Origin: a virus
Length of the DNA: 54,818 nt
IMG/VR virus record: IMGVR_UViG_3300008113_010961
Span: 1 to 54,818 of that record
Reading direction: 5' to 3' (one strand)
Positions 6,973-39,039 of this stretch are shown piece after piece. The translations under genes were made by a program, and so were the position numbers. The stretch's first letter is position 1. Each line of letters begins with the position of its first letter. Under the pieces are notes generated by a model that was given only the letters and a program-made list of their open reading frames with translations, was not told where the DNA came from and ran no database searches.

Positions 6973-9900
6973 ATGTCTGATAAGCAAGCCATGATCCGTA
7001 TTTATGAGCAGTTTGCCACAAAACTAAGCTCTGAAATAATCAACGAGGGTATAGAAAATTCTGTACCTAAAATACCTAAATTGTTAAATAATACCGATAT
7101 AGATTTTTTGATGAAGCAGTTTGACAGGCGAGATTGGGCGCAGGCTATGGCTAAGCGCTACGTTATGCTTTTTCACTATCTTGTAACCCTAGATCACTTA
7201 CGCAAAGAGGTTGTTAAATACTATAAAGAACGAGAAGAGCTAAATGCTCAAAATTACTACAGTCAGCCTCAGTTTGCTCGATTGTCAAAGTGGGCCAAGG
7301 ACAGAAAAGTTAAAGATATGGCAAATTCAACTGCCAAGGCTAGGGCAACTCAACTTTTTCCAGCAGGAGAAACAATAAATCCGAAAATTATAAATAGACC
7401 AGAATTTAGATCGGCTGATAAGCAGGAATTATCAAAAATAATAAACAAAATTAACAATTATTACATGGCTGATAATAAGATTGAATTTGCAAACTTTGTC
7501 ACAGGATCAGAGTCAAATCCTAGAAGCTACAAAGCTTATCCCCACCTCAAAGATTTGGCCAAAAGTTTAGAGGGTGAATTTGGCAAACCTGACGGTTTTG
7601 ATTTGCATAATCCAAGAAGAATTGCCAGAAGCAAAGATGATAAACCTATTGAGCCAAAATACATTACAGATGGTTTTATTTTCCCGACAAAGAAAGAAAT
7701 TGAAGATGCCATCAGAAATAAATTAAAAGACATAAGTAGGGGTATTAGTGTTCCAACAGATACGGATGATGAGGCAAGACTCGTAGGACACTTCCCCAAA
7801 AGAGAAAAACTTGTATCTGATGAAGGCACATCACCACTGGAAAAACAATTAATCAATATATACTTGCGTAAAGCTGAAGAAAATTTGAAAGCAAAAAAAA
7901 AGAGCAATCCTCATTTCAATTACAAAAGAAGTGATGTCAGAAAAGAAGCAGCACGCCTAGCTAGATTAAAAATAAAAAATTATACCTACGGCCAGTTCGC
8001 TGACTTTTTGAAAAACCAAAAAGGAATTAGCCAAGCAGATGTTGCTGGCATCGGAGATGTTTTTCCCAATACCACAATTGAGGGCATCGGAGACAAGGAC
8101 TTTATCAAACAAATAAATCGTAAAACTGACATTCCACATCAAAAAATGCAAATTACACGCCTGCAAAACGGTAAGGAAAAAATTGACACTGTGGAAAATC
8201 CTGTTTTAAACAAAACGATAATGTACAAGGATGTAAAGCTAAGATATCCACATGATACTGATGATCCAGATTTGACAGTTGACACCACGCAAACAGATTT
8301 GGTTGGCAGGGGTTTAGGCGAGAAAACTTTTGATCCTATTTTATTTGATAGACTTTTTTCTAGGTGGAAGGCTTTGAAAGATGGAAAAATTGATCCTAAC
8401 AAAGCTAGACAATTAGAACTAATTCTTAATAAACATGGTTTAAGTTCAACTAGTCCTTTAAAAAGTGTTGTGGAAGCAGCAAAGCGTTTTTATTACCAGC
8501 AAGCGGATCCTTCGGCTTACAAACAGGGAAGTGACGTTTCTTCGACATTTAGTCATCACCCCTTGAGAATGTCAGCAGAGTCAAAAAATCTAAACAGGTT
8601 TCACAACCAAGCAGATTTTGATGCAAAAATGGATATTTTATTTAAAAAAGGCTGTAAATATAAGGCATCTGGACAAACAATACCTTTGCATGTAGTGATA
8701 AAAAAAGCCGTGAATAGGTTTGTTACACCGAAGAAGGATATGCCATTAGGACAAGCTTTGCCAAGATTGCTGATGGGCAGATCAAAAAACACGCTTAATT
8801 CGCTAGCACAAGAACGTGTGTTGGGCGATTTGGGAAATGATAGATTATACATGAATGTTGGTAGTGCCAGAGCACCTGATTATTATGGTGATGCAAATAC
8901 AATTAGAAATATTGTAAACAAAGAAATGAAACGCTATTTCGATCAAAATCTTTTGGCTGGCGCAGCTAGAGGCAGAGGCGATTTCATCCAGATATTAGAT
9001 AGAGAGTCGGAGGATCTAAATTGCCGGCAGGGAGCAAGAAGTTTTACTTCCGGTCAATGCTTGTTTGGCAATGATATAAAAGCAAATATTGAAAAGGCGT
9101 CAGATGGTTATGATTCCGCAACTAGTGGAGTAATGCCTAGTGCTGCAGGCGGCATTATTGAACAAAGACAAAAAATTTATAGAGCAATACAAGGCACGTA
9201 TGAAATGATGCAAGCTTTGTATGCCATGAAGAAAACAAGATTCGCTTTGGAAAGTCATCATGATGAAATGATAAGCAAAAACAATCAAATGCAGACTTTA
9301 AACGCCAAACCAACAAAAACACAAAAAGATTTGGATTCAATTAAAAAATTGCAAAAAGAAATTGCAGGTCTGAAATCAAAAGAGAGAGAAAAAGCAATTT
9401 ATGACATAACAAAATTCTTTTCTGATAATATCTCACTAACACCAGAACAATTTCTAAATGCATTTTATAAAGAGTATCAAGATGATTTGAATTTTGTCAG
9501 AGCCAGCGGGAAAAATGTTAATCTTAATATGCCTCAGGAGTTAGCTGGCACTAACAAGGCCGATCCATACAGCTTGGCTTCTGTTGAGCAATATAAAAAA
9601 CGACTTAAAGATAAAAAGATTAGTGCCGCACAAACAAAAAATATTGACACCAAATTTATGTCAGCTATAGAAAAAAATGACATAGCGCAACTTGCACACA
9701 ATTATATTGAGCAAGTAAAACAATTTCCAACAAATATGGAGAAACTTTACACTTCATTAATAAACCAGATTCCAAATCCTCTCGATAAGCAACAATTCGA
9801 AATGCTTGTGCGGGGAGTAAACCAACAAGTTCAGGAAAAACTAAACAAATACGCAAATGAAGATGAAGTTATTGAAGATCTATATTCGCTTTGGAATTTA

Positions 9901-10338
9901 ACAGGCAACCATCGAAGAAAAATTGGTCCGGATATATTAAAAGGTTTTCAAGAAAACGGTAAATATATATCCAGACCACTTTTGCTTAATATGGCTAGTG
10001 TTATGATGAGTGATTATGGTCATGACATCGAAAAGGAAAACAAACTTTTCCCCGATGATGATCCAGTGCCAGAGCATATTACGAAAGAACCATTTTTCAT
10101 AGATTGGAAAAAACGCAGAAAAGAATCCGAACCTTATAGAAAACAGGCTATGACCTTGGTCTTTAAAGAAATAGAACGAAGAAATATGTTCCTAAGATTG
10201 GCTGCTGGCGTACGTAATCCAGAAAAGTTCGAAAAGAACTTAGAATTAATTAACGCCGAGTCAAGACCGCCTAAAAAGAAAGCCGGCAGACCTCGCAAAA
10301 ACCCAATAATACCACCTACACAGCCACCTAAAAAATGA
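6973..10338 (+). CDS. Very large protein of unknown function, possible internal virion protein
   Basis: This 1121-residue protein is highly charged, Lys/Asn-rich and mostly helical in look. I recognise no catalytic motif. The start is set by GAGG seven bases before the ATG. The N-terminus (MIRIYEQFATKLSSEIINEG) contains I-N-E followed by G, the kind of site cut by T4-type prohead protease, preceded by an F-containing helix as in capsid-targeting leaders. A coiled-coil-like region lies near residues 770-805 (KNNQMQTLNAKPTKTQKDLD). The C-terminus is Lys/Pro-rich with an AT-hook-like core (KKKAGRPRKNP). It is surrounded by virion genes and its stop overlaps the next ATG. A DNA-associated internal head protein or a structural protein is possible. 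Confidence 0.75.
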   Translation: MSDKQAMIRIYEQFATKLSSEIINEGIENSVPKIPKLLNNTDIDFLMKQFDRRDWAQAMAKRYVMLFHYLVTLDHLRKEVVKYYKEREELNAQNYYSQPQFARLSKWAKDRKVKDMANSTAKARATQLFPAGETINPKIINRPEFRSADKQELSKIINKINNYYMADNKIEFANFVTGSESNPRSYKAYPHLKDLAKSLEGEFGKPDGFDLHNPRRIARSKDDKPIEPKYITDGFIFPTKKEIEDAIRNKLKDISRGISVPTDTDDEARLVGHFPKREKLVSDEGTSPLEKQLINIYLRKAEENLKAKKKSNPHFNYKRSDVRKEAARLARLKIKNYTYGQFADFLKNQKGISQADVAGIGDVFPNTTIEGIGDKDFIKQINRKTDIPHQKMQITRLQNGKEKIDTVENPVLNKTIMYKDVKLRYPHDTDDPDLTVDTTQTDLVGRGLGEKTFDPILFDRLFSRWKALKDGKIDPNKARQLELILNKHGLSSTSPLKSVVEAAKRFYYQQADPSAYKQGSDVSSTFSHHPLRMSAESKNLNRFHNQADFDAKMDILFKKGCKYKASGQTIPLHVVIKKAVNRFVTPKKDMPLGQALPRLLMGRSKNTLNSLAQERVLGDLGNDRLYMNVGSARAPDYYGDANTIRNIVNKEMKRYFDQNLLAGAARGRGDFIQILDRESEDLNCRQGARSFTSGQCLFGNDIKANIEKASDGYDSATSGVMPSAAGGIIEQRQKIYRAIQGTYEMMQALYAMKKTRFALESHHDEMISKNNQMQTLNAKPTKTQKDLDSIKKLQKEIAGLKSKEREKAIYDITKFFSDNISLTPEQFLNAFYKEYQDDLNFVRASGKNVNLNMPQELAGTNKADPYSLASVEQYKKRLKDKKISAAQTKNIDTKFMSAIEKNDIAQLAHNYIEQVKQFPTNMEKLYTSLINQIPNPLDKQQFEMLVRGVNQQVQEKLNKYANEDEVIEDLYSLWNLTGNHRRKIGPDILKGFQENGKYISRPLLLNMASVMMSDYGHDIEKENKLFPDDDPVPEHITKEPFFIDWKKRRKESEPYRKQAMTLVFKEIERRNMFLRLAAGVRNPEKFEKNLELINAESRPPKKKAGRPRKNPIIPPTQPPKK

Positions 10339-10604
10339 GCCAAGTACCAAACAACGACGCAGGTTACGTAAATTTTCTTAAAACTCATGGATTGCTCTCT
10401 CATATTGCTCAATGGAATATTGATGGCAAGGAGGCTTACTATCCCATAATATACAAAATATGTTCAGTTATAAATAGCAATCAGGAATTAGAATTAGCCG
10501 CATCGTTTTTAAATAAAATTTATGAAAGTGGTTATTACAAATCAGTACAAGATCACCAAGCCGCTCTCGAAAAACTTGGACTTAGCACAAAAATTTCTAT
10601 CTAA
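10335..10604 (+). CDS. Small protein of unknown function (89 aa)
   Basis: The ATG overlaps the stop of the 1121-residue gene (ATGA), so the pair is probably translationally coupled. The 89-residue product is predicted helical and acidic-to-neutral, with no recognised motif (NFLKTHGLLSHIAQWN near the start, ELAASFLNKIYESGYY in the middle). Its last eight bases overlap the convergent gene at 10597. It may assist the large upstream protein, since coupled small partners often do, but that is inference only. Confidence 0.6.
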   Translation: MSQVPNNDAGYVNFLKTHGLLSHIAQWNIDGKEAYYPIIYKICSVINSNQELELAASFLNKIYESGYYKSVQDHQAALEKLGLSTKISI

Positions 10605-11265
10605 AACTTGGCTGTGTTGAAGTTGGAACACAGGAAAAGAATGATCCTTCAGGCGCAGATCGTATAGAACTAATTTTCCACCATCTTCTGCCATCATTTT
10701 TAGGATAAACAATGGAGTTTTTAGTTAAAAAATCAAGATGTGACCAGAATATTAATTCCATATCACTTTCTTGAATGATAATATTTTCAAATACAAATGT
10801 TCTTGTAAAGTTAACTTTTACAGTTTTATCGTCGTATAAAGGATCTATTATTTCTTTAGTTTCTGCAAGCATGCAGTGCATAACGTCTTTTCTGTAGTTT
10901 TTAAGTTTTTCGTTTATACTAGATGGCCGCAATACATCTGGATCTTCCTTCTTAGGCTCTGGACTTGGTTCTGGTTTTTTGAAATCTGGAATTACAAATT
11001 CCTGTATCTTGTTATTTTGTACGACTTTAGGAGGTTCCGATGGCGGAATCTTAGGCAGTTCCACCTTTTCTTCTTTTTTTATGGTTGTAGAAACTCCAAA
11101 ATCAATTTTTTTGGAAACAGGTTTTACGGTTTCTTTATTGTTTACCGTATCTGCATCAAAATTCATGTTATGTACAGTAAACTTATCCCAGACCTCTTGA
11201 GTCATCATTATAGGGTTCGGAGATCGGACTTTATATACCGTACCATCTTTATTTTTAATTACCAT
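10597..11265 (-). CDS. Protein of unknown function with Pro/Lys-rich middle (222 aa)
   Basis: The 222-residue product has a short N-terminal segment (MVIKNKDGTVYKVRSPNP), a disordered middle of about 80 residues rich in Pro, Lys and Glu (for example FKKPEPSPEPKKEDPDVL), and a compact C-terminal half ending SVPTSTQPSFR-like. The last half contains Trp-rich strands (DGRRWWKISSIRSAPEGSFF). I do not recognise it. Position among neck and tail genes suggests a virion or assembly role. It has no Shine-Dalgarno site. Instead TATAAA ends four bases before the ATG, so it may be expressed late as a leaderless message. Confidence 0.65.
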   Translation of the reverse strand: MVIKNKDGTVYKVRSPNPIMMTQEVWDKFTVHNMNFDADTVNNKETVKPVSKKIDFGVSTTIKKEEKVELPKIPPSEPPKVVQNNKIQEFVIPDFKKPEPSPEPKKEDPDVLRPSSINEKLKNYRKDVMHCMLAETKEIIDPLYDDKTVKVNFTRTFVFENIIIQESDMELIFWSHLDFLTKNSIVYPKNDGRRWWKISSIRSAPEGSFFSCVPTSTQPSFR

Positions 11266-11302: not shown

Positions 11303-11719
11303 ATGGCTTTAGTAGTACCAAATGTTGGAGAAGTGCAACTTCTACAAAAAATGCTTAATCAAAACCAGACAGCAACCATGTTGTTGGGTCTGTACCAGAA
11401 CAATCTTACCCCCAATGCTTTGACAACAAATAGCGACATAGTTCCAGTAAGTGCAGTTGGTTATGCGCAAGCTACTATCACTAATGCTAACTGGTCGGTT
11501 GCCACTCCAATAGGATCAACTTACGCCGAAGCTGGTTATGCAGAACAAACCTTTACTTTGGGCGTAAATCCAACCACTATTGATGTTTATGGATATTACG
11601 TTACTGATTCTTCAGGTAACTTATTATGGCTAGAACGTTTCACTAATGCACCTTTTGTTGTACCTATGGCCGGTGGAACTATTAGCGTTACACTAACTAT
11701 TAACTTGGAAAATGTATAA
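11303..11719 (+). CDS. Probable virion structural protein (138 aa)
   Basis: The 138-residue protein begins MALVVPNVGEVQLLQKMLNQ and continues with a beta-rich body containing VDVYGYYVT-like strands and LLWLERFTNAPFVVPMAGGT. I recall this pattern (ALVVPNVGE..LL, then 'YGYYV', then 'LLWAERF') from small phage structural proteins of unknown exact place in the virion. GGAGG lies seven bases upstream of the ATG. It heads a plus-strand run that ends at the terminator at 14352. Its stop overlaps the start of the next gene by eight bases. Low Lys/Arg content and regular alternation of polar and nonpolar residues fit a beta-sandwich. Confidence 0.65.
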   Translation: MALVVPNVGEVQLLQKMLNQNQTATMLLGLYQNNLTPNALTTNSDIVPVSAVGYAQATITNANWSVATPIGSTYAEAGYAEQTFTLGVNPTTIDVYGYYVTDSSGNLLWLERFTNAPFVVPMAGGTISVTLTINLENV

Positions 11720-13076
11720 GTTTATTGGGTTAAGCAATTTTGCTGAATGGTTTTTTGCGGAAAGCTTGGCAACCCAAGCAGAAAATTTTCGTAGATTTAG
11801 AGATGTTTTTATAAATCCATATATTGATGATATTTTAGCTCATGCAAATTCAAACCCTGCATTTGCAACTCCTGCTCAAAAAATTCAATTGCAAAATTTG
11901 AAAACTGATGACGAGTTATTCAATGCACTGCCGACTTATGTAAAAAAAAGATTCGATCAAGAAGAACTAAGGGATGATGAAAAAGTCAGACAAAACATAG
12001 CAAGAGAGAAAGCAAAGAATGACCCAAACTCTTTTGCTAATTTAGATGAACTAATTCAGAATGCAAGTGAAGCAAAATTACGTAAGGGAAGTGCCAAACT
12101 TGGACTTACTAACATAATTCAGTTTATAAACCATGTTGTTACCATGAAAGCCAAGTATGCTACTGCACAGGCTGAAAGAGAATTTTTAACAGGTGGTGCT
12201 CTTGGCGGAGAAGAAGGCGCATCATCTGCACCTGACGTTGAAGTTGATGATCAAGAAATAAGAGACAGAGCCGAAGAGAAAGCTGATATCACCGAGAAAA
12301 CAAATAAGATTTATCAGTGCGTAAGATTTTTTATTGAAAAGAAAGCTGCTAAACAAGCAAATAGACTTCTCGGTTCGCAAAATGAAATAAATAGCCAACT
12401 TAGTAATGAAGGTGAAGTATTAGATTTGGCACTTCTTACAGATGTCAAAACACTTAGCATCTTGAATTTAGCTGCTAATTTCATAAAATCTAAAGAAAAA
12501 ACAGTGGATGAAGATGGCACTCCACATGTAAGAAATATGTTCCCAGACAGGGATTTGATGGAATTACTATCTGCAAAAACCAAGTATTTAAAGAAAATTG
12601 TTGACAATGAAAACTTCAAACCTTGGGTTCTACGACAACTGCAAAAAGACGATCCGGCTGCTAAGGCATTGATGAAATCTACTTTAGGAATCGCATTTAT
12701 TTATGCGTTGCTAAATAAGCAAGAAAAAGGTGGCAGTCTGAAAGATGTGAGCAACGTATTCAATACTATAGCTTCAGTTAGCGCAGATGAAACATTAGCA
12801 TCTTTCTTAAATGCTATAAAGGAAAAGTTCATAGAGGGAAAAGTAAGGTTTATAAGGAATTCTAAACTAGGAAGCATGATAAATACTGAAGTTTCTGGGG
12901 GCGGTGACGATGCGATCAAGAATTACATGTTTGATCACAAATTCCCGAATCCAACGAAAGGTGAAGCGGATGCTACCGATTTCTTTAATTTCCTAACACA
13001 AATAAAAGGCAATAGAGAAATAGATTGGCAGGATAGTTGTGAAGAGATTTTGGCCGCTTTAGGGGGTTCCAAATAA
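11712..13076 (+). CDS. Protein of unknown function (454 aa), possible head or internal protein
   Basis: The 454-residue product is largely helical, with many Lys and Glu residues. It is acidic around residues 165-200, with a Gly-rich break (GGALGGEEGASS). I recognise no enzyme motif. Its first residues (KFIGLSNFAEWFFAES) resemble the F-x-x-[FW] leader seen on several other proteins here, although the cleavage-type residue before x-E is Phe rather than Leu or Ile. The start codon overlaps the previous stop region. The gene lies in a virion-gene run, so a structural or internal head role is likely but unproven. Confidence 0.65.
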   Translation: MYKFIGLSNFAEWFFAESLATQAENFRRFRDVFINPYIDDILAHANSNPAFATPAQKIQLQNLKTDDELFNALPTYVKKRFDQEELRDDEKVRQNIAREKAKNDPNSFANLDELIQNASEAKLRKGSAKLGLTNIIQFINHVVTMKAKYATAQAEREFLTGGALGGEEGASSAPDVEVDDQEIRDRAEEKADITEKTNKIYQCVRFFIEKKAAKQANRLLGSQNEINSQLSNEGEVLDLALLTDVKTLSILNLAANFIKSKEKTVDEDGTPHVRNMFPDRDLMELLSAKTKYLKKIVDNENFKPWVLRQLQKDDPAAKALMKSTLGIAFIYALLNKQEKGGSLKDVSNVFNTIASVSADETLASFLNAIKEKFIEGKVRFIRNSKLGSMINTEVSGGGDDAIKNYMFDHKFPNPTKGEADATDFFNFLTQIKGNREIDWQDSCEEILAALGGSK

Positions 13077-13077
13077 T

Positions 13078-13624: not shown

Positions 13625-14329
13625 ATGAAAAGTTTTTTTGAATTTTATGAGAAGTTGAAACTTAAGAAGCTACATGAACAAGACGCTATGGTTGCACCGA
13701 ATATGGGTATGGGCGCTGCTCCTCCCGGTGGCGGCATGCCTCCCGGCGGTGGCATGGGTGGTGGCATGGGTGGCGGTATGGCTCCTGCCGGCGGCGGAAT
13801 GGACGGTATGGGCGCACCTATGGGTCAGGATGGTGGCGATAATAACCTCGACACAGAAATAAGCGATGAGGGAGGTGGTGATGAATCACGCAGCCAAACT
13901 GCTCCTCCTGAGGGGGAAAACACTCCTGAAGAGTTATATCCTATGGTTGACAATATTGTTAAGTTTGTAAAAGAATTCAGTATTGGCGATGACGATGATA
14001 AGAAATCCACTCGTGAAGAATTAATGTCTCAGTTAGATGCAGTAAAAAATAATATTGCTAAATTAACAGGTGTTCAGCCCTCTTCTGACAATTCAGAGGA
14101 TGAAGAAAGTGATGACAGCGTAGGGTCTAAAGATATTCCAGTTTCTGGTGATGAGATTCCTCCCGGCAAGACCACAGCTTATGGTGGTGAATTCGGAGAT
14201 TCCGCTGGCAATCAGTTCCCTAGCAATGGCAGCGGTAGCGGTGACATGGGCGGAAATATGGCTGGCGGATCAAACCCAGCCACCACCGGCGCTGGCGCAC
14301 TAGGTTTTGGCGGCGGTTTTTCTGGCTAA
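13625..14329 (+). CDS. Gly/Met/Pro-rich protein with a capsid-targeting-like leader
   Basis: The start at 13625 is chosen over a TTG-type start at 13607 because AAAGGAGA ends four bases before it. The 234-residue product has three parts. The leader MKSFFEFYEKLKLKKLHEQ carries F-x-x-F then L16-H17-E18, a T4-type prohead protease site. A very low-complexity stretch of Gly, Met and Pro follows (residues 28-75, repeats such as PPGGGM and GGGMGGGM). The rest is acidic and polar, with a helical section near residues 100-145 and a Gly/Ser/Asn-rich tail. A similar composition is seen in the small gene at 36165. It may be a scaffold or internal head protein. It is the last gene before a strong terminator. 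Confidence 0.65.
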   Translation: MKSFFEFYEKLKLKKLHEQDAMVAPNMGMGAAPPGGGMPPGGGMGGGMGGGMAPAGGGMDGMGAPMGQDGGDNNLDTEISDEGGGDESRSQTAPPEGENTPEELYPMVDNIVKFVKEFSIGDDDDKKSTREELMSQLDAVKNNIAKLTGVQPSSDNSEDEESDDSVGSKDIPVSGDEIPPGKTTAYGGEFGDSAGNQFPSNGSGSGDMGGNMAGGSNPATTGAGALGFGGGFSG

Positions 14330-14351
14330 TTTTATTTGATTGACTCTCCTA

Positions 14352-14379
14352 GGGGGCTTCCAATGAAGCCCCCTTTTTT
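14352..14379 (+). terminator. Rho-independent terminator
   Basis: GGGGGCTTC (14352-14360), a four-base loop CAAT, GAAGCCCCC (14365-14373), then six T. It ends the plus-strand run 11303-14329. The T tract is on the plus strand only, and it just touches the end of the convergent gene. Confidence 0.92.
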
Positions 14380-15163
14380 ATTTGAATAACTTGCATTTTA
14401 ACTTAATGTAATTTTCAACTTTCATGTTTAGCTTGTTTACTAATACTTTAAGTTGTATTAGACCATATAATTGAACATACTTTGATAGTTTTTTATATAA
14501 ATTGTCAAAATAATTGTTTTGATTATCCTTATGTCCCTTGGCTATTATGTCTCTTCTTAGTGCAAATGTAGATGCTTGCCATCTTCTGTAATTTTTTTCT
14601 TCACTGTTCATTTCTTCTATGGTAATTTCTTTATCCAACACAGGAAAAACTTGGCAAATTTTATCGCCCTTCTTAAAAGTTAATTTCTGTCCTTCTTGCG
14701 GAGCTTTGAATACTATAAAAAACAAGCTACTCCACCAGTTTGTTTCAAGATGCCCTGAGATTACACATGGTACATTATCTTCTGAATAAAACCTTGGATG
14801 ATTTTCAATTCGCAGAACATAGTTCTTTTCAACCATAATATCAAGGCATGTATTCATACTGAAATGCGATTCACCTAAGCATCCTACAGGAACTCCTATT
14901 TTTTGAACTATTTCTGCATCTTTATTCCAATCCTCTGCTGTAATTTCAATTTTGCCATTTATTTTAGTGACGGTTATTTCTGTGTTAAATGGATAAAAAA
15001 TTTCTAAACCATATGTGTTTGCATCAACAAATGGCTTACACATGTATGGTTGTATTTTCCGTTCAGTTTTATGCTCAGAAGGTGAACCGGCCCATACTTC
15101 TAATTCCAAATGTATTAGTTTTGGAGGTAATTCGTTAGTTAATTGTCTGTATTTTAAATGCAT
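14378..15163 (-). CDS. Conserved phage protein of unknown function, tentatively DUF6065-like
   Basis: The 261-residue product has KIQPYMCKPFVDANTYGLE near residue 40, SHFSMNTCLDIMVEKNY in the middle, then SGHLETNWWSSLFFIVFKAP and GDKICQVFPVL. This order (a 'FxDAxTYGLE' step, a long beta-rich centre and an 'ETDW' step) recalls the DUF6065 family, but I cannot confirm it. I chose the ATG at 15163 because GGAG (15173-15170) sits six bases upstream; the ATG at 15181 has none. The last 80 residues are Lys-rich and helical. It is the only minus-strand gene in a plus-strand virion block. Confidence 0.6.
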   Translation of the reverse strand: MHLKYRQLTNELPPKLIHLELEVWAGSPSEHKTERKIQPYMCKPFVDANTYGLEIFYPFNTEITVTKINGKIEITAEDWNKDAEIVQKIGVPVGCLGESHFSMNTCLDIMVEKNYVLRIENHPRFYSEDNVPCVISGHLETNWWSSLFFIVFKAPQEGQKLTFKKGDKICQVFPVLDKEITIEEMNSEEKNYRRWQASTFALRRDIIAKGHKDNQNNYFDNLYKKLSKYVQLYGLIQLKVLVNKLNMKVENYIKLKCKLFK

Positions 15164-15196
15164 TTTTAACTCCACAAACATAACTATTTTAGTATT

Positions 15197-16195
15197 ATGT
15201 TACCAATAGGACCAAATCCCAATCCGTATGATAAAACATTAAACCCTTGTCCTGATCAAGGGCCAATGTGGAGATCAGAGAATATAGACCCGCCACCGGG
15301 TTTTTGTGATCAACCTCCGGATAACCAAAACAATCAATTAAACAATCTTCCATCGCCATCTGACTGGTTTGATGATTTCCTAGACAAAAAATACATGTTG
15401 GGATCTCAGAACAACTCAGATCCTATGCAAACCGGTCAGATTGTAAACAATCTTAATCCTCCAAACAGAAATGTTGTTTACCGTTATGCAAGATCTATTA
15501 GATCTTGTGATGAAGCGATAATGGACTTATTTAGGAATATTGTTGTAATTGATGACGATGGAAAAAGTCATCAGGTGCCGATAATTTGGGGCACACAAGA
15601 ACGTGCGGTAGCCGCAGTTGTCCAGCAGAATGTAAGAAAAGATTTAACATTAGTTGTTGACAGAATTAGACTGCCGATGCTTGCTATAAGCAGCACTGAA
15701 TACAGTATAGATCCAGCGAGATACACTTACCACAAAGCCATAAATTTTTTAAGTGACAATAAAGGATTGCCAACTTTTACTGAGTCGGAGAGATACGAAA
15801 GAGACACAGTATTTGGTTTGGCTAGAGGCATTCCCGTAAACATTGGTTACACAATGTATGCTTGGACATTGCAGCTAGAGGACATGAATCAAATATTAGA
15901 ACAAATCGTAACTAAATTCTCACCTGTTGCATATATAAAAGTCAGAGGAGTACTCTGGGAAGTTTGTGTTAAGCTTGATAGTATAGCTAACAATTTAGAG
16001 ACTGAGCCCGGAGATGCTGCTTTAAGAGTTATCAAATTTCAATTTGGTATCACTGCTGAAACTTATGTTAATCAACCGATTACTAGGAACAAAGCGGTGC
16101 TCAACACTAAAGTTGATTTTGTTAATGCTCTTAATGAAGCGGAAATCTCCGAAGTGATTAAGCGCTTGGAAGAATCGGTAGAAGGGGTACAATGA
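15197..16195 (+). CDS. Tail sheath stabiliser/terminator, gp15-like
   Basis: The 332-residue protein starts with about 80 Pro/Asn-rich residues, then a domain matching the logic of T4 gp15. It has RYARSIRSCDEAIMDLFRNI, VPIIWGTQERAVAAVVQQN, LPMLAISSTEYSIDPARY and the family hallmark YAWTLQLEDMNQILEQIV followed by KFSPVAYIKV. Gp15 caps the tail tube and sheath and joins the tail to the neck. A sheath gene directly downstream fits. No Shine-Dalgarno site precedes the ATG at 15197; a TATTTT box lies upstream. It may begin instead at a later Met. Confidence 0.72.
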   Translation: MLPIGPNPNPYDKTLNPCPDQGPMWRSENIDPPPGFCDQPPDNQNNQLNNLPSPSDWFDDFLDKKYMLGSQNNSDPMQTGQIVNNLNPPNRNVVYRYARSIRSCDEAIMDLFRNIVVIDDDGKSHQVPIIWGTQERAVAAVVQQNVRKDLTLVVDRIRLPMLAISSTEYSIDPARYTYHKAINFLSDNKGLPTFTESERYERDTVFGLARGIPVNIGYTMYAWTLQLEDMNQILEQIVTKFSPVAYIKVRGVLWEVCVKLDSIANNLETEPGDAALRVIKFQFGITAETYVNQPITRNKAVLNTKVDFVNALNEAEISEVIKRLEESVEGVQ

Positions 16196-16395
16196 TTGAA
16201 ATAACCAATATGCAAAAGTCGCCTATTCAGTTGGTGATTAAGTCTAGGAGAGCGTTACACTCTTATGACACGGTTGATATTCCCGGACTAGGCAACGGGC
16301 AAAATAAAATATTGATAGAAGATCATTTGCATACACCATATATAGATAGGGCAGAGAAGTCTGGTTATATCAAACAGAGAATTTTGAAAGACTAA
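16192..16395 (+). CDS. Small protein of unknown function (67 aa)
   Basis: The ATG at 16192 overlaps the gp15-like stop (ATGA). The 67-residue product has a beta-like first half (ITNMQKSPIQLVIKSRRAL) and a central Gly-rich turn (IPGLGNGQNKILIEDH). I recognise no family. Lying between the sheath terminator and the sheath, it is probably a small tail assembly or accessory protein. Confidence 0.6.
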   Translation: MIEITNMQKSPIQLVIKSRRALHSYDTVDIPGLGNGQNKILIEDHLHTPYIDRAEKSGYIKQRILKD

Positions 16396-16413
16396 AAGAC
16401 ATAGGAGTAAATT

Positions 16414-18966
16414 ATGGCACTATTACAAGCATTTCCGCCTTCAAACACAATAAGTCCCTCAGTAAGATTCACTGAGCAAGACTTGACCCTCTTAACCACC
16501 ACTCCTGCAACTAATGCAATTGGTTTGGTTGGATATGCCAGCAAGGGTCCCATTAATACACCCACCTTGGTAACGTCAACCTACGAGCTTCATACTCTGT
16601 TCGGTTATCCACATCCTTCGATGGGATACGCTCCATATCTAATGTATGCAGCGCAAAATGCCTTGGCATTCACTAATGCCGTTTGGATTGTTCGTGTAGC
16701 CGACACTGACCCAATTTCTCAGTGGTATGCCACTACAGCTAGCGTGCAAGTGCCTGCAGCCGGTGGTCTATTGAAGGTACATGGTGCCTTCTTCGACGTT
16801 GGCGACCAGATTACATTCACCTCCAGAGCTGGCGGCGAAGACTACAGTTTCCGTTGGGCTTTAAATACAGTTCTTAGCAGCAAAGCAGTAACACTTCCTG
16901 CAGGCGCATACACTGTTGAAGAAGTTGTCGATCACTTGAATCTTCAACTAAATCCAACCGTTGATGGTGTTGAATTCTTTGTTTACGAGAACCCATCTGA
17001 TGCAACTCAGGTAGCATTAGGATTCCAAACTGTTTGGGCTTACGGCGATCAATCAAGCTTAGAATTAGTAAGCGTATACAACAACCTTATCGGTGCCACA
17101 CCAAATTCTACTGGTACTTCTCCAGCATTTACGAATGTTAATAACATCCTAGGACTTGGCAATATGATGACCGTTCCTTCTAAGAGCGGTGCGTATACAC
17201 ACTATCCAATTGATGCATCTCATGCTACAGCAGGTGTTTGGATTTTCCCAGTTGGAACCTACACTTTGCAGGTAGTTACAGATGGCTCTGGATTAGTAAG
17301 TGTTGATAACGTTATTCGTACATATGACTTCTCTGCAACCTTGAGCGGCCAAACATACAATACAACTGCCGATTTGGTAACAGCATTGAACACAGCTGTA
17401 GTAACCCTAAATCCAACCGTAAACGGTGTGGTTGTAGAAGACCTACCTGTCTGCTTCCAATTCGAAGCTGATGGTGACGCAGTTGCTGTTAGCACTGATA
17501 CAACAAACACAGACAACGCTGGTGTTCTTTGTGGTCGTTACGCCAAGATTAACGCCAGAGGTGGTACCTTGGCTGCTATCTTGGGCATGAGCGCTCAGGG
17601 AGCTATCGGCGATACTCCTACAGGAGTTGCCGATAATGAGGATTCAGACGCTAATGATGGTTTGTGGATTGGTAGCAATACTTTGGTACCAACTGATACT
17701 GGTTACTACACCTTCCAGTTGTTCGCAGACAGTCCCGGTATTGAAGGAAACCAGACATTTGTTACATTCAAGAAATATCCTGAAGGAAATACATTCAGCA
17801 TGGATGTTTTCCTTAAAAATCCTGTGAATGGAGCAACTTTGCAGGTTGAAAGCTGGGGCAATCTATCAAAGGATCCCAATTCTGCTTTCTACATCCAGAG
17901 CTATATTAACAGTTTTAGCAATTACATTCGTGTAGTTGATAACACCGAAACTACAGCACCCCCTCCCTCAAGCGTAATGTTGACTCAGGTTGCTGAGAAT
18001 GATCTTCGCTTGAGCGGCGGTTCCGATGGCTATCCTACAGGAACATCCTCTGCTGCGCTAGCTTTACGTGACGCTTTGTTAATTGGTAGTCCAGTAAACA
18101 TGAGTGGACTTTTCGCATTCAGCGATCCTGAACAGGTTAATATCGACCTATGTGCAGTTCCCGGAGCAACTACAACTTTGGTTATCTTGGCACTTATTAA
18201 TATGTGCGAAGAGTATCGTCAGGACTGCATGGCTATTATTGATCCGCCATCTGGCTTATCTCCCACAGAAGTTATTCAGTGGCAGAATGGACAGAGCCAA
18301 GTTAACGCAGTAAGGTTTGACAGTGACTTTGCAGCTCTCTACTGGCCATGGATTTACATTTATGATAGCTACAACAACATCAATGTATGGTGTCCTCCAA
18401 GTGTTGGCACAGTTGCTGCTATTGTAAATAGCGACAATATTAGCGCTCCTTGGTTTGCTCCTGCTGGCATCCAGAGAGGTGTAGTACCTAACGTTCTTGA
18501 CGTTGCATATGTACCTACCCTAAAAGAAAAAGACAATATGTATGGCAATAGCAACGCCATCAATCCAATCGTTCGTTATGCTGGTTCTGTTGACTATGTA
18601 ATTTGGGGTCAGAAAACTCTCCAGAGAGCACCAACAGCTCTTGACCGCATCAACGTTCGTAGAATGATGTTCTACGTGGAAAAGCAAATTCGCAGCCTTT
18701 CCCGTCAGCTATTATTCCAACCACACACCGAAGCTCTGAGAAACCAGTTTATTCTTTTAGCTAATGGTGTGTTAAACAACGTTCAGAATCAGCAGGGTAT
18801 TGCTGCCTACAAGGTTGTTTGCGATGCAAATCTTAATCCGCCTGACGTAATTGACAGAAATGAACTGAGGGCGCAAATCGGTATAGTACCGACCCGAGCA
18901 GTGGAATTCATCTTTATTGAATTCACCCTGTACAGAACTGGTGCATTGGATACGGTTACGGCTTAG
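16414..18966 (+). CDS. Contractile tail sheath protein, gp18-like
   Basis: The 850-residue protein is a contractile sheath (Phage_sheath family, T4 gp18). The N-terminal domain starts FTEQDLTLLTTTPATNAIGLVGYASKGPINTPTLVTSTYELHTLFG, a classic sheath opening in which the subunit hooks to its neighbours; I give it in parts: TNAIGLVGYASKGPINTP, then STYELHTLFGYPHP. The C-terminal domain has the family features KTLQRAPTALDRINVRRMMF, VEKQIRSLSRQLLFQPH and GIVPTRAVEFIFIEFTLYRTG. The centre (about 130-500) is a large beta insertion, so it is longer than T4 gp18 (659). Shine-Dalgarno AGGAG lies upstream. It contracts on infection to drive the tube through the cell envelope. Confidence 0.93.
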   Translation: MALLQAFPPSNTISPSVRFTEQDLTLLTTTPATNAIGLVGYASKGPINTPTLVTSTYELHTLFGYPHPSMGYAPYLMYAAQNALAFTNAVWIVRVADTDPISQWYATTASVQVPAAGGLLKVHGAFFDVGDQITFTSRAGGEDYSFRWALNTVLSSKAVTLPAGAYTVEEVVDHLNLQLNPTVDGVEFFVYENPSDATQVALGFQTVWAYGDQSSLELVSVYNNLIGATPNSTGTSPAFTNVNNILGLGNMMTVPSKSGAYTHYPIDASHATAGVWIFPVGTYTLQVVTDGSGLVSVDNVIRTYDFSATLSGQTYNTTADLVTALNTAVVTLNPTVNGVVVEDLPVCFQFEADGDAVAVSTDTTNTDNAGVLCGRYAKINARGGTLAAILGMSAQGAIGDTPTGVADNEDSDANDGLWIGSNTLVPTDTGYYTFQLFADSPGIEGNQTFVTFKKYPEGNTFSMDVFLKNPVNGATLQVESWGNLSKDPNSAFYIQSYINSFSNYIRVVDNTETTAPPPSSVMLTQVAENDLRLSGGSDGYPTGTSSAALALRDALLIGSPVNMSGLFAFSDPEQVNIDLCAVPGATTTLVILALINMCEEYRQDCMAIIDPPSGLSPTEVIQWQNGQSQVNAVRFDSDFAALYWPWIYIYDSYNNINVWCPPSVGTVAAIVNSDNISAPWFAPAGIQRGVVPNVLDVAYVPTLKEKDNMYGNSNAINPIVRYAGSVDYVIWGQKTLQRAPTALDRINVRRMMFYVEKQIRSLSRQLLFQPHTEALRNQFILLANGVLNNVQNQQGIAAYKVVCDANLNPPDVIDRNELRAQIGIVPTRAVEFIFIEFTLYRTGALDTVTA

Positions 18967-18989
18967 TAGTTTTACAAGGAGATACAAAT

Positions 18990-19625
18990 ATGGCACAACC
19001 AATTAAAATGGGCATCGGCCCAATCGGTACGACAAACGACATCATCTTCAAAAGGAAGTTTAGATGGACCTTTGAAGTAAACCAAGTTTGCGGTGGTGGA
19101 AACCAGTTCGGAAACATCCCTGCTGCCTTCGTAAAAGTTGCTTCTAGGCCAAACGTTTCTTTTGATGAAACTGAAATTAACTTCTTGCAGGGCAAAATGT
19201 ATATTCCCGGCAAAGCAACTTTCGAGACTGTCACAGTAACTTACTATGACATCACTCCTGTTCGTAGCGATACAATCTTGAATCTCTACAACTGGATTGG
19301 TTCTGTTTACAATTTCCTTGGTCAGCCAAATGCTGCAAATAACTTTGCCGGCAGCTGGGAGAACCCCACCATGTCCTCCTTCGGTAATGGTGTTGGCGGC
19401 TACGGTGGCACAGGCGTCCTCACCATGTATGATGGCGGCGGAGCACCTTTGGAGCAGTGGACACTATACACATGCTGGCCACAGTCTGTTAACTTTGGTG
19501 ACCTAGACTATGCAACATCTGATGAATGTAACATCGAATTAACCCTTCGTTATACATTTGCTAAGTGGTCAAACCTTTGCGGTTACGAGCAGCCCAATCC
19601 TTGCTACGCTGGTTGCCGCTTCTAA
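18990..19625 (+). CDS. Tail tube protein, gp19-like, copy 1
   Basis: The 211-residue protein follows the sheath gene, as in T4. It has the tube-protein pattern: KRKFRWTFEVNQVCGG near residue 20, FVKVASRPNVSFDETEINFL, then KMYIPGKATFETVTVTYYDI and a late EQWTLYTCWPQSVNFGDLDY. The C-terminus (CNIELTLRYTFAKW) is a typical closing strand pair. Tube subunits stack as hexameric rings through which DNA passes. GGAG precedes the ATG. It is followed by a strong terminator, so it closes the first tail unit. Confidence 0.88.
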   Translation: MAQPIKMGIGPIGTTNDIIFKRKFRWTFEVNQVCGGGNQFGNIPAAFVKVASRPNVSFDETEINFLQGKMYIPGKATFETVTVTYYDITPVRSDTILNLYNWIGSVYNFLGQPNAANNFAGSWENPTMSSFGNGVGGYGGTGVLTMYDGGGAPLEQWTLYTCWPQSVNFGDLDYATSDECNIELTLRYTFAKWSNLCGYEQPNPCYAGCRF

Positions 19626-20526: not shown

Positions 20527-21048
20527 CTAGTGATTTTTCTTTTTCTCTTTTTTCCTACCAGTCATAACTGGATTACCATTCTTGATAGCAAATATTTTAC
20601 TATACTTCTTTTTAAGCTCATTATAGTTTTTAGCTGTACGCCATAGTTGTCTAAAGTGATTAAGTATGCAAGTTGTCATGTAATTGAAAGCTTTACCCTT
20701 GCTTGGGTCAAATTTTTCTACTCTTTCAAAGCAAATGAGGACACCTTCTTGTATTGCATCATCCTCATCGATGTTGCTAAATTTTGCATACCTTACTATA
20801 TTTTTAGACAAGGTATAAAATGCATCTGCTAGAATTTTTTGTGCAGAAGTTAAATCTGTGCTGGCCTGAGACAACTCAGATTGTTCTAGTATTAGTGGTA
20901 TAATCATACAGCTTTTGTTTTGTATTTTTATTAGTTGAGTATTAAAATCTTCTAGTAGGATTTTGAACTTATTTTGTTGTTTTTTGGCTGTTTGGAATCG
21001 TATGATTATTGATTCGAAACTTTTGTTGTTTAAATATTCTGATGACAT
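20527..21048 (-). CDS. Late transcription sigma factor, gp55-like
   Basis: The 173-residue product resembles T4 gp55. Residues about 100-145 form a sigma region 2: FSNIDEDDAIQEGVLICFER, then VEKFDPSKGKAFNYMTTCIL and NHFRQLWRTAKNYNELKKKY. The last part matches the gp55 core that contacts the host RNA polymerase and the -10 element. The C-terminus is short and very Lys-rich (GRKKEKKKNH). Gp55 redirects host polymerase to late promoters with TATAAATA. No classical region 4 is present, as in gp55. It would be the factor for the TATAA-ATG boxes listed here, including the one in front of itself, which would make it autoregulated. It overlaps no neighbour. Confidence 0.78.
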   Translation of the reverse strand: MSSEYLNNKSFESIIIRFQTAKKQQNKFKILLEDFNTQLIKIQNKSCMIIPLILEQSELSQASTDLTSAQKILADAFYTLSKNIVRYAKFSNIDEDDAIQEGVLICFERVEKFDPSKGKAFNYMTTCILNHFRQLWRTAKNYNELKKKYSKIFAIKNGNPVMTGRKKEKKKNH

Positions 21049-29398: not shown

Positions 29399-29938
29399 TT
29401 ATGAGTTTGGCCTCGATTGATCTGTTGGTCCACCAAGAGGTGGAATGGTGCTTAAATCCGTCATTCCATTAGTCATGGCTGTTTGGTTATCAAAATTGGT
29501 ACCGCCAACTTTGCTCATATCATTTTGATCTGATCCCAATTCTTCGGCTCCCTGCTTATCTGAAACAGCAAGATTATTGATAGGTCCTTTAATTTTATCA
29601 AGAATTTTTTGATTTATTAAATCTAAACATCCCTTGATAATAGAAGCTATATCTTGATTTTTAGCATCTTTGTCACCATCTGCTAATAACTTCATATTAT
29701 AAGCAACTGTTTGTAATGGTACCAAAAATGTTTGCTGTTGTTTTAGCCAATGTCCATGTAACATAGTTTGAATTATACTAAATACATCTTCGCAATCGCC
29801 TTTTAGCTCAACTAATCCACTAGTAGCTAAATTTAGCATAGATTGAAGGCGCTCCGCAATATCGGATGCGGCTTGCTTTAAAACTCTGTTATCTTCTAAA
29901 AGAACAAAGCTTTTGAAGGATATTATTTCATCAAACAT
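29399..29938 (-). CDS. Protein with capsid-targeting-like leader (179 aa)
   Basis: The 179-residue product begins MFDEIISFKSFVLLEDNR. It has F-x-x-F, then L13-L14-E15 before D16, a T4-type prohead protease site. The body is helical to about residue 125 (for example LKGDCEDVFSIIQTMLHGHW), and then polar, Gly/Asn/Gln-rich and probably disordered. No Shine-Dalgarno site is visible; TAAATAAAG precedes the ATG. A packaged internal head protein is possible. The first gene of a unit with the amidotransferase and nuclease genes. Confidence 0.6.
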   Translation of the reverse strand: MFDEIISFKSFVLLEDNRVLKQAASDIAERLQSMLNLATSGLVELKGDCEDVFSIIQTMLHGHWLKQQQTFLVPLQTVAYNMKLLADGDKDAKNQDIASIIKGCLDLINQKILDKIKGPINNLAVSDKQGAEELGSDQNDMSKVGGTNFDNQTAMTNGMTDLSTIPPLGGPTDQSRPNS

Positions 29939-36128: not shown

Positions 36129-36164
36129 AACCTAATTCTACTTTTTTTCTGTTAATTTAGCAAG

Positions 36165-36536
36165 TTATTTTGCTTTTTCTTTTTTCTGTTGATCGAAGAA
36201 TTTATCCATCCTGTACCAAACATCTGTATTTTTGAGATCGATGTTGGTTGGCTGTTGTGGTGGGCCTCCCATGCCACCACCCAAACCTCCGCCCATATCA
36301 GGTGCTCCGCCTCCAAGTGGTGGCGCTCCTCCTCCCATTCCTCCTCCGGGTGGCGCTGCTCCTAATCCTCCTGCATCCCCACCAATTCCACCTGCTGGCA
36401 ATGGTGGTGCGCCTCCCATTCCACCTGCATCTCCTCCTGTTGGAGGTGCCGGTGCTGCTCCTGCTGCTCCCCCTGCTGGGGCTGCGTCGGCCTCTGTAAT
36501 TAGGCTTCTTACAAAATTCTTAAATGTAATCATCAT
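36165..36536 (-). CDS. Gly/Pro/Ala-rich protein with capsid-targeting-like leader (123 aa)
   Basis: The 123-residue product begins MMITFKNFVRSLITEADAAP. F-x-x-F is followed by I13-T14-E15 before A16, matching both T4 internal-protein leaders and the (L/I)-x-E cleavage rule. Residues about 18-95 are low complexity: Gly, Pro and Ala in short repeats (APAGGAAGAAP, GGAPPLPAGGIGG). The last 30 residues are charged (YRMDKFFDQQKKEKAK). Composition and leader match the larger gene at 13625. No Shine-Dalgarno site is present and TATAAATAAT abuts the ATG, so it is likely late-expressed. A disordered internal head protein or scaffold component is plausible. Confidence 0.65.
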   Translation of the reverse strand: MMITFKNFVRSLITEADAAPAGGAAGAAPAPPTGGDAGGMGGAPPLPAGGIGGDAGGLGAAPPGGGMGGGAPPLGGGAPDMGGGLGGGMGGPPQQPTNIDLKNTDVWYRMDKFFDQQKKEKAK

Positions 36537-36546
36537 ATTATTTATA
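36537..36546 (-). promoter_or_regulatory. TATAAATA late-type box abutting an ATG
   Basis: On the minus strand TATAAATAAT is followed directly by the ATG at 36536. It contains the exact T4 late core TATAAATA and there is no ribosome site. A second ATG follows immediately. The divergent gene at 36568 starts after a similar AT-rich stretch. Confidence 0.6.
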
Positions 36547-36567
36547 TCTAATTGATAAATATTTTAT

Positions 36568-37023
36568 ATGAAAACGTTCAGAACATGGCTGGAGGAAGTT
36601 TCTCCAACTGCTGAAGATGATCCCACATTGGCCGCAAGCCCTTCTCCTGAAGAGGCTATGGCCGCTCCTCAGCAAAAAATGACAACCAAACAATATCTTG
36701 AAAAGTATAAAATTAAGCCTTGGAAGGCTAGCAAAGAACAGATTTTAAGCTTCTGGAGAACTCTTTCTCCCGGCGCACCTATCGCTATAAAACCAATTCC
36801 TTATGACCATGAAGGGTCAACTATTCAGGAAGATACAGTGCGTATTACTGGCTCAAAGGAATTCATAGCCAGCGTTTTGACCAGATTGAAAGACTTTTTA
36901 AATTACGAAAACAAAGACACCAAAATTATGGCTGCCTATCGTCAAAGTCCTAGAAGTTTTCTACCGGGTAATAAAAATAGCTACATTTTCTATTTGCAAG
37001 TGATGGAACGTGGTAAGGATTGA
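36568..37023 (+). CDS. Protein with capsid-targeting-like leader (151 aa)
   Basis: The 151-residue product starts MKTFRTWLEEVSPTAEDD. F4-x-x-W7 is followed by L8-E9-E10 before V11, very close to the leader of T4 internal protein III (MKTYQEFIAEA). A Pro/Ala-rich spacer (about 20-40) leads to a compact basic domain from about residue 38: TTKQYLEKYKIKPWKASKEQ and ITGSKEFIASVLTRLKDFLN. No enzyme motif is recognised. No Shine-Dalgarno site is visible, as for its divergent neighbour. A packaged internal protein is the best guess. Confidence 0.62.
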   Translation: MKTFRTWLEEVSPTAEDDPTLAASPSPEEAMAAPQQKMTTKQYLEKYKIKPWKASKEQILSFWRTLSPGAPIAIKPIPYDHEGSTIQEDTVRITGSKEFIASVLTRLKDFLNYENKDTKIMAAYRQSPRSFLPGNKNSYIFYLQVMERGKD

Positions 37024-37297: not shown

Positions 37298-38710
37298 ATG
37301 GCAAAAATAATTTTAAAAAACGATATTAGCCAAATTGTAACCACTAATGAAACTTTGGCTAAGTTTCTTTACGACAACTTGCGTTTTCGTGACCGCAATT
37401 ATTTTCATAATCGTGCCTATCGTCAGCGTATCTGGGATGGTTTTACAAACTTCTTTAACAAAAATAATGGCAAATTTCTAACTGGCCTGTTGCCAGAAAT
37501 ACTTATGGCTTGCAAAGCACACAAAGAAGAAGTTCAAATCTTAGATCAAAGAACAAAGGTTGACTTTGCGGTAAATGAAATAAATTCCACATTCTTGCAT
37601 TCTTGCACACCGGCTGGATCGCCTGTCATTACTCTTGAAGACTACCAAGTCGATTTGGTTAATTCTGCTATAAAAAATAAACGTGGAGTTATATTTGCTC
37701 CAACCAGCGCTGGCAAATCGTTGACCATGCTTTCAATTTTGAAATGCTTACCTGCCGGTACTAAAACTCTGGTTTTGCAAAACCGTAAAACCTTGGCTAT
37801 TCAGAACTATGAAGAATACACGAAATGGGGTCTGCATAACGTTGGAAGGATTTGGGGTGGAGTTGACGAACCAAATGACATCACAGTCAGTACTGTGCAA
37901 TCTATATCCAAAGCCGCTGATCTCTTGCCAGAGGTTGAAGTTCTTTTAGTCGATGAAATTCACGACATGATGAGTACCGCCCCCAAAGCCGTTTACCGCA
38001 TGTTAAAGAAATGCAGTGTTAGAATAGCAGTTAGTGCTACACCATTTAAATTTGGTGATAGCGACAAAATTCAAAAGTTTTATGTTAAAGGTTTTTTTGG
38101 CCCTCCTTTTAAAATTAAATCAACTGAGACTGGAATTGTTACAACACAGGAATTGCAAAACAGAGGAAGACTCTCAAAAAGCCGTTGCATATTCCACAAA
38201 ATTAACAGTCCTGACCTCGAATATGAATTGTATCAAGATGCCGTAAACCTTGGTATCGTTGAAAACAACACTTTGCATGAAAAGGTTGTTGAATTAGCTA
38301 CTGCCCAATCTGGCAGAACATTGATTCTTGTGGATCGTCTGGCACATGGCGATACACTGCAAAGTCTAATTCCAAATGCTCTCTGGGTTCAAGGCAAAGA
38401 CAATGATGAAACTCGCAAACAAGTAATTGAGCAACTACAAAAATCAGAAAATTGTATTGCAATTGCTACTCAAGGTATATTTAATACCGGAATTAACGTA
38501 TTTGTTCACACGTTAATTAATGCTGCGGGCGGCCAAGCTGATCATCAAATTATCCAAAGAATGGGTAGAGGTTTAAGAACTGCAAAGGACAAAGAAGAGT
38601 TGCTTTATATTGATTTCATATTTGAAACCAATCCTTATTTGCACAAACACAGTATGAAAAGAGTAAAGATTTTGCAGAAACAAGGGCATTCAATTGAAAT
38701 ATTAGATTAA
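37298..38710 (+). CDS. UvsW-like DNA helicase
   Basis: The 470-residue protein is a superfamily 2 helicase of the UvsW group. The first 100 residues (with NETLAKFLYDNLRFRDRNYF) would form the DNA-binding domain seen in UvsW. The helicase core has Walker A APTSAGKS (K140), DEIH (219-222), VSATPFKFG, and the late motif QRMGRGLRT. In T4, UvsW moves branched DNA, unwinds R-loops and helps switch replication to the recombination mode, together with gp46/47. I chose the ATG at 37298 (AGAGG eight bases upstream) rather than one at 37244. The gene overlaps the convergent small gene by four bases. Confidence 0.85.
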   Translation: MAKIILKNDISQIVTTNETLAKFLYDNLRFRDRNYFHNRAYRQRIWDGFTNFFNKNNGKFLTGLLPEILMACKAHKEEVQILDQRTKVDFAVNEINSTFLHSCTPAGSPVITLEDYQVDLVNSAIKNKRGVIFAPTSAGKSLTMLSILKCLPAGTKTLVLQNRKTLAIQNYEEYTKWGLHNVGRIWGGVDEPNDITVSTVQSISKAADLLPEVEVLLVDEIHDMMSTAPKAVYRMLKKCSVRIAVSATPFKFGDSDKIQKFYVKGFFGPPFKIKSTETGIVTTQELQNRGRLSKSRCIFHKINSPDLEYELYQDAVNLGIVENNTLHEKVVELATAQSGRTLILVDRLAHGDTLQSLIPNALWVQGKDNDETRKQVIEQLQKSENCIAIATQGIFNTGINVFVHTLINAAGGQADHQIIQRMGRGLRTAKDKEELLYIDFIFETNPYLHKHSMKRVKILQKQGHSIEILD

Positions 38711-39039
38711 GGATTGCCAGTCATGATGTCCACAATGTCTCCAATTGTGCCATCAATTTCATCTACAGAGTCCAATTGCTTCCTTCTTGGATCGTTTTCT
38801 GGCAATTCCTTGTAAAACTGCAGATTTTTAATGGTGTTTTTTACACCCATTTGCATTGAAGTGCCTTTAGGACCGGGAACTTCTTGGGTTTCAAGATTCC
38901 TTAAAGGCTGCTTTCTCAGTTCGCCACGGTTGCCTATTCCGCCTAAATCAAATGCACTACGAAGAATATCAAGATAATTATTTTCTTGATTCTGTATGGC
39001 TTCTTGGAGCCAGCTCGAAAATTCTAGTTTAACTGCCAT
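38707..39039 (-). CDS. Protein with capsid-targeting-like leader (110 aa)
   Basis: The 110-residue product starts MAVKLEFSSWLQEAIQNQEN. F7-x-x-W10 leads to L11-Q12-E13 before A14, a fit to the T4-type prohead cleavage rule. The rest is polar and probably helical with a Gly turn (RSAFDLGGIGNRGELRKQPL). There is no enzyme motif. It is alone on the minus strand, between UvsW and an unknown gene. No Shine-Dalgarno site is seen; TAAATATATTT precedes the ATG. Internal head protein is plausible. Confidence 0.58.
   Translation of the reverse strand: MAVKLEFSSWLQEAIQNQENNYLDILRSAFDLGGIGNRGELRKQPLRNLETQEVPGPKGTSMQMGVKNTIKNLQFYKELPENDPRRKQLDSVDEIDGTIGDIVDIMTGNP

Follow-up and report, generated by a model that had tools for sequence, protein, structure and literature searches.

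The IMG/VR virus record IMGVR_UViG_3300008113_010961, analysed here over its whole length of 54,818 nucleotides (54.8 kb; hereafter the window), comes from a T4-like myovirus and covers part of its genome, encoding gp13, gp15, sheath and tube proteins, a gp26-type hub protein and a gp55-type sigma factor, together with SbcC/SbcD, UvsW and a polA-type polymerase. Five of its proteins, from genes at 13625, 29399, 36165, 36568 and 38707, have unrelated bodies and begin alike, with an aromatic anchor, F-x-x-[FW], followed by [LI]-x-E. An earlier note on this DNA had likened these leaders to the capsid-targeting sequence of T4 internal proteins; that of IPI, IPII and IPIII was reportedly described by Mullaney and Black. 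All five N-termini were confirmed, and no similarity of the bodies to one another was detected. Three more proteins that the note had named as near matches (6973, 11712 and 39072) do carry the anchor, with a cut site that is weaker or absent, so that (L/I)-x-E is present in five of the eight window leaders.

Four IMG/VR contigs are colinear with the window, namely the near-twin G001 (~95% DNA identity), G002 and G003 (~65–76%) and the more distant G004; G006 and G008 are relatives added afterwards. In the annotated phage collection the nearest genome is LR756511.1 (hereafter LR756511), an unannotated uncultured phage of 595 kb, whose SbcC shares 38% identity with that of the window across 99% of the length, the next best match in the collection reaching ~26% or less. 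A 343-kb IMG/VR contig, G016, is nearer still, with ~25 window genes matched (sheath, E=2e-200). With LR756511 and G016 as its closest matches, the window is part of the genome of a huge T4-like phage. A more distant huge phage of 323 kb, G017, was included as well.

The leaders are kept in four to six diverged relatives, in which the anchor F-x-x-[FWY] is conserved and [LI]xE usually follows at a variable distance, despite the shifting number of residues ahead of it. The clearest case is gene 36165 (36165–36536, minus strand), which encodes a Gly/Pro/Ala-rich protein whose leader (36492–36536) reads MMITFKNFVRSLITE↓AD in the window, the arrow marking the predicted cut, here I-T-E↓A. Its counterparts are MITFRNFVKNMLNE↓AD in G002, MRTFKEFILLTE↓AD in G004, MISFSRFLDAKILLE↓QD in G008 and MRSFRQYITEVLLNE↓Q in LR756511, so that the spacer changes length and the cut site is kept. 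At 38707 (protein 38707–39039, minus strand; leader 39001–39039, MAVKLEFSSWLQE, predicted cut L-Q-E↓A), the G002 version, LEFKSWYLTVLNE↓T, has an insertion ahead of the site and LNE instead of LQE, keeping LxE, and the same slot reads MENFKIWLEE in G004 and MKNFRVWLEE in LR756511. The leader of 29399 (protein 29399–29938, minus strand; leader 29894–29938, MFDEIISFKSFVLLE, predicted cut L-L-E↓D) recurs as ISFKRFVLLE in G002, ISFKNFILNE in G004 and MRFKDFLLNE in G008, with MEFKKFLITE at the corresponding position in LR756511; FK.F.L.E stays while body identity drops to 23%.

Gene 13625 (13625–14329, plus strand) encodes a protein with a disordered, Gly/Pro/Met-rich body behind the leader MKSFFEFYEKLKLKKLHE (13625–13678; predicted cut L-H-E↓Q). 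Its longest open reading frame begins with TTG at 13607 and the leader with ATG at 13625. Related leaders are MKSFFEFYDKLKSKRLNE↓Q in G002, MKNFYEFYRKLNANKLFE↓Q in G004 (686 amino acids) and, in G006, both MKSFFSFYDKLKNINE↓Q (193 amino acids) and MKSFYEFYRKLQADKLFE↓Q (1055 amino acids). In two of these relatives (G004 8646–10706 and G006 14238–17405) a disordered leader protein of this type has an additional fused domain, several hundred residues long, which suggests modular exchange downstream of the leader. The fifth leader, MKTFRTWLEE (36568–36597, plus strand; protein 36568–37023; predicted cut L-E-E↓V), has an F-x-x-[WY] anchor in all relatives and a clear LxE only in the window, G001 and G004; the site is LED in G002, MRE in G008 and absent from G016 and LR756511, the variants WLEE, WLED, KILNE and KMRE standing behind an invariant anchor.

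Among the weaker cases, all on the plus strand, the 1121-residue protein at 6973, which adjoins the gp13 homologue, starts with MSDKQAMIRIYEQFATKLSSEIINE (6973–7047, G following). It is matched by IYESFATKLSSKVVNE in G002 and IYCAYSKDKKNNLFE in G004; the LR756511 slot begins MLLKFKEFL, and G006 has no site. The 454-residue protein at 11712 has F-x-E only (MYKFIGLSNFAEWFFAE, 11712–11762, S following), and its G002 counterpart, MYKIIVNICFKEWLLVE↓D, shows the full anchor plus a site-like LLVE. The 271-residue protein at 39072 is anchor-only, with no [LI]xE in its leader MNYKMLFKEWL (MNYKMLFKEWLGKSPEV, 39072–39104); F-x-x-W is kept without a cut site in G002, G004, G016 (MQFREWF) and LR756511 (MKSFASWF). 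None of the eight window leader proteins matched a Pfam or PHROG family significantly or showed body homology to IPI, IPII, IPIII or Alt. PDB profile searches with 39072 and 36568 were empty, and a fold search with the 39072 model returned nothing; the AlphaFold models, built from three to four sequences, are of low confidence (predicted local distance difference test scores of 59 for 39072 and 50 for 36568).

Six of the 56 window genes match F-x-x-[FWY] followed by [LI]xE within their first 35 residues, where interior windows predict 0.24 (P=1.6e-7). One of the six, a metallophosphoesterase at 29965, was set aside as a coincidental motif. Since this pattern was derived from the window itself, more weight falls on conservation in relatives and on genome-wide scans of phages chosen regardless of the leader. 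For the latter we counted N-termini matching M.{1,3}F[polar]{2}[FWY], taking the expectation from each genome's own interior methionines. LR756511, chosen by homology and independently of the leader, has 56 such N-termini against 9.8 expected (P=1.5e-24); adding [LI]xE to the pattern gives 25 against 2.1. With the pattern fixed beforehand, G016 gave 24 against 2.9 (P=8e-15) and G017 29 against 2.0 (P=3.5e-24); both had been picked for one MKTFxxWLxE match each, a bias of one match. The motif scan that the earlier note had proposed for the rest of the genome thus finds, in the large relatives, a very large N-terminal excess. Counts were at chance in phiKZ (3 against 2.9), lambda, phiM12, S-PM2, Mosig and RHph_Y65, and barely above it in syn9 (4 against 1.3, p=0.04). 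Across IMG/VR, MKTFxxWLxE occurs in 86 stretches, mostly near the start of an open reading frame, ten of them on contigs of more than 200 kb and up to 533 kb, whereas the scrambled control MKTWxxFLxE occurs in 14, none on a contig above 136 kb. A product of chance or of N-terminal compositional bias might be argued from the frequency of F-x-x-[FWY] alone, which follows 7% of interior methionines in LR756511, and from false matches such as 29965 and SpoVR. The controls already refute this explanation, with control phages near chance and three huge phages reaching P values as low as 1e-24, and the leaders are retained in orthologues and share an independent promoter association; we regard it as very improbable.

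The cut motif was assessed in 132 leaders of the three huge phages, within 17 residues of the anchor, against interior segments. Behind the anchor [LI]xE is present in 45 leaders (34%) and in 13% of interior segments (P=1e-9), and in the same set the control motifs E.[LI], [LI].Q, [LI].K and [LI].[ST] show no enrichment. Several observations weigh against reading these N-termini as trimmed capsid-targeting leaders. Strict [LI]xE is found in only about a third of the leaders, other spacings are mildly enriched as well ([LI]E 1.8, [LI]..E 1.9, [LI]...E 1.7), as the leaders are Glu-rich, and the window slots 39072 and 36568 hold the anchor but usually not the site. These same features fit a leader that targets the prohead core and mostly stays in place, the [LI]xE excess reflecting an amphipathic, Glu-rich helix under no selection by a protease: two thirds of leaders lack the strict site, Glu is overrepresented at more than one position behind the anchor, and those two slots retain the anchor and lose the site. 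The ratio for [LI]xE (2.6) nevertheless exceeds that of every other spacing while E.[LI] is flat, slots 36165 and 38707 change spacer length yet hold the site, and a Peptidase_S77 is present in the large relatives, so that we consider an untrimmed leader an unlikely, if serious, alternative. The note's proposal of trimming after (L/I)-x-E accordingly narrows to the subset of leaders with a predicted site, the others having no clear (L/I)-x-E; for this reason 'trimmed' would apply to some of these proteins and 'targeted' to more.

The prohead protease that such a cut presupposes was not found in the window or its four short relatives, a further point on the opposing side, and the window genes alone were rejected as protease evidence. 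Terminase, portal and major capsid protein were likewise not found in the 54.8-kb window, nor were T4 gp17, gp20, gp21 and gp23 in those short relatives. G016 and LR756511 encode a T4-like terminase, portal and major capsid protein together with a gp21-type Peptidase_S77, which in LR756511 is present in two copies, one adjoining gp23. Peptidase_S77 was found in 11 of 16 large leader contigs, including G016 and G017, and in all the closest large relatives it occurs together with T4-like gp23 and gp20. The gp21-type protease that the note had asked for is thus encoded by these relatives; the window itself covers only part of a genome. All three huge phages have TGLLEGI at about residue 25 of their major capsid proteins, plausibly a propeptide cut of the same type as the leader cut. 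S77 alone is no predictor of the leader, because cyanophages and rhizobial T4-like phages that bear it show no clear excess, which also weighs against the capsid-targeting reading; the idea that S77 in a T4-like phage always comes with a set of leader proteins was dropped, phiM12, S-PM2, syn9, Mosig and RHph_Y65 having none or a marginal one. Elsewhere in LR756511 there are several further gp23-like fragments, and three proteins, L133 (242240–243133), L131 (217923–218561) and L132 (224453–225196), have twin-arginine-like N-termini (NRRTFMSVLGSM.., TRRGWIAGICSFLG.. and NRRCFIAECAYG..) joined to a gp15-, gp13- or S77-protease-like stretch.

An octamer, NATA[AT]ATA, within 30 bp upstream of the start is found preferentially at leader genes and resembles the T4 late promoter, TATAAATA. 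It precedes 16 of 56 leader genes (29%) and 24 of 966 others (2%) in LR756511 (p=2e-11), 16 of 29 (55%) and 18 of 410 (4%) in G017 (p=1e-12), and 5 of 24 (21%) and 5 of 391 (1%) in G016 (p=9e-5); the corresponding counts in the window are 2 of 4 and 4 of 54. In the window, TATAAATA lies at 36539–36546 on the minus strand, 10 bp ahead of the 36165 start codon, GATAAATA at 36554–36561 on the plus strand, 14 bp ahead of that of 36568, and CATAAATA at 39037–39044 on the plus strand, 35 bp ahead of that of 39072. The same octamer stands upstream of structural genes, among them gp13 and gp17 in LR756511 and gp21 in G017. Being independent of the protein motif, this association supports the chosen start codons and a putative late expression of the leader genes. 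At leader genes of LR756511 and G017 the octamer often ends just 3 to 10 bases ahead of the ATG and no Shine-Dalgarno sequence is present, so that the late mRNAs of these phages may be nearly leaderless. A different octamer, AGCTGTAC, occurs 134 times over both strands of LR756511, upstream of 34 genes (7 expected), and is a repeated regulatory or structural element.

The amphipathic helix could also bind partners other than the prohead core, in which case the leader would be another sorting tag, directed for example to a phage replication compartment or a membrane. The late-type promoters shared with structural genes speak against such a destination, as do the prohead protease motif behind the anchor, an architecture identical to that of the IPI, IPII and IPIII leaders, and the lack of such leaders in phiKZ, a nucleus-forming giant phage; we judge this explanation improbable.

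The resemblance to T4 is closest for IPI, whose N-terminus, MKTFKEFTSTTTPVSTITE↓A, of the form MKTFKEF..ITE↓A, has the F-x-x-F anchor, variable spacer and I-T-E of window gene 36165 (MMITFKNFVRSLITE↓A), in agreement with the kinship that the earlier note had proposed. The IPI precursor has 95 amino acids and its mature form 76 (PMC3012670), which fits the ITE cut. IPI, IPII and IPIII together share with the huge-phage leaders a short N-terminal anchor (M-K-T-[FY]-x-x-F), a variable spacer, (L/I)-x-E in a subset of the huge-phage leaders, and unrelated bodies, and genomes of this kind also encode a gp21-type protease. The T4 targeting sequence, of ~10 amino acids, brings GFP into the core (PMC9958956), and T4's three such internal proteins have each been shown to block restriction enzymes (PMC12373910). 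The signal has served to find ip genes in T-even phages (Repoila et al. 1994, as cited in PMC12373910 and PMC3012670). Unlike T4, with three such proteins, the huge phages have 24 to 56 candidates per genome; their anchor is often F-x-x-W, many leaders lack the strict cut site, and the cargo includes large proteins and enzymes. The Campylobacter T4-like phage CPt10 has comparable N-termini (MKFSDFLEEQ twice, MTFTKFINEA, MKFSEYLINES and MTFKDYLNNITINEA), with nine showing anchor plus site against 0.9 expected, and encodes S77; it differs from the huge phages in having fewer and smaller proteins and no clear leader-specific promoter association. The giant phages phiKZ and SPN3US, which eject a bolus of protease-processed head proteins (PMC5694885), are alike in size, in their many head-internal proteins and in having a prohead protease. 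In contrast, an inner head protein of phiKZ is cut at SQE-122, past a long propeptide, and phiKZ shows neither a leader excess nor a PF03420 match. In the literature searched, which lacked most subscription journals, we found no description of such a leader cohort in huge phages.

Most leader-protein bodies belong to no known family. The recurrent exception is an enzyme of the CCA-adding/poly(A)-polymerase type: of 16 examples on huge-phage contigs, some of them almost the same in sequence, 14 bear the leader, and the linker that joins it to the body varies. Single leader-bearing cases include a tRNA-ligase phosphodiesterase, an RNA-repair HAD, an AAA_33 kinase, a radical SAM protein, a SNF2-type helicase and a C39-type peptidase. 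They need care, because the LR756511 SpoVR match proved false, homologues without a leader sharing that N-terminus, which is therefore native; coincidences of this sort also weigh against reading each single match as a leader. A basic-charge bias of the cargo was discarded, being significant in LR756511 (p=7e-4) and not in G016 or G017. Small leader proteins recur (L167, L166, L170, L169 and L210; 56441 and 218787 of G017; 71311 of LR756511), one family having CKDxxNPNFQIWG and a Lys-rich tail and another GLYPxGYGGxGxYPP.

Several landmarks and neighbours in the window lie outside this cohort. The T4 gp13-like neck protein (head-tail adaptor Ad2; 6067–6987, minus strand) matches PHROG 211 (E=1e-15), the gp15-like sheath stabilizer, tail sheath and tail tube (15197–19625, plus strand) match PHROGs 227, 23 and 4542, and the gp55-like late sigma factor (20527–21048, minus strand) matches PHROGs 351 and 234. 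The tail-fibre region (45135–49245 and 49256–53734) encodes proteins with long repeats and a 1492-residue protein with RCC1-like repeats; similar proteins occur in G002 and G017. Beside this adhesin region, at 344–5914 and 53731–54447, lies a row of enzymes that by eye are of sugar- and methyl-transfer type, perhaps for glycan decoration.

The window leaders are documented by the N-termini themselves, their conservation, the genome-wide excess, the cut-motif enrichment, the promoter association and the protease in relatives, and from these we infer core binding, packaging, cleavage and injection. At a probability of roughly 0.8, these common N-termini act as capsid-targeting leaders like those on the T4 internal proteins, a subset of them trimmed, on a scale far beyond T4's three internal proteins. 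A short amphipathic N-terminal segment, M-[KN]-[TNS]-F-x-x-[WFY]-[LVI], would be made late in infection and bound by the scaffolding core during prohead assembly, so that the head forms with the tagged protein inside. A gp21-type (Peptidase_S77) protease, its gene lying in another part of the genome, would then cut behind [LI]-x-E and free a subset of the proteins from their leaders. Their bodies could vary without constraint, and cargo, trimmed or untrimmed, would remain beside the DNA in the head and probably enter the host along with it. About eight such candidates are seen in the window, and the whole genome, judged by its relatives, may encode some 20 to 50.

These patterns suggest that huge-phage virions may hold a large, still uncatalogued protein cargo. 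More specifically, we give even odds to the proposal that several huge-phage lineages (300 to 600 kb) load about 20 to 50 proteins into the head by a T4-type leader, including RNA- and tRNA-repair enzymes (CCA-adding/poly(A)-polymerase type, tRNA-ligase phosphodiesterase, RNA-repair HAD phosphatase and AAA_33 kinase) that act at infection, for instance by undoing host tRNA cleavage ahead of phage gene expression. If so, tRNA-repair enzymes are predicted to travel in the virion, and the leader would reveal from sequence alone which proteins are injected by uncultured huge phages, whose genes mostly have no known function, making dozens of orphan genes per genome candidate first-minute counter-defence or takeover factors.

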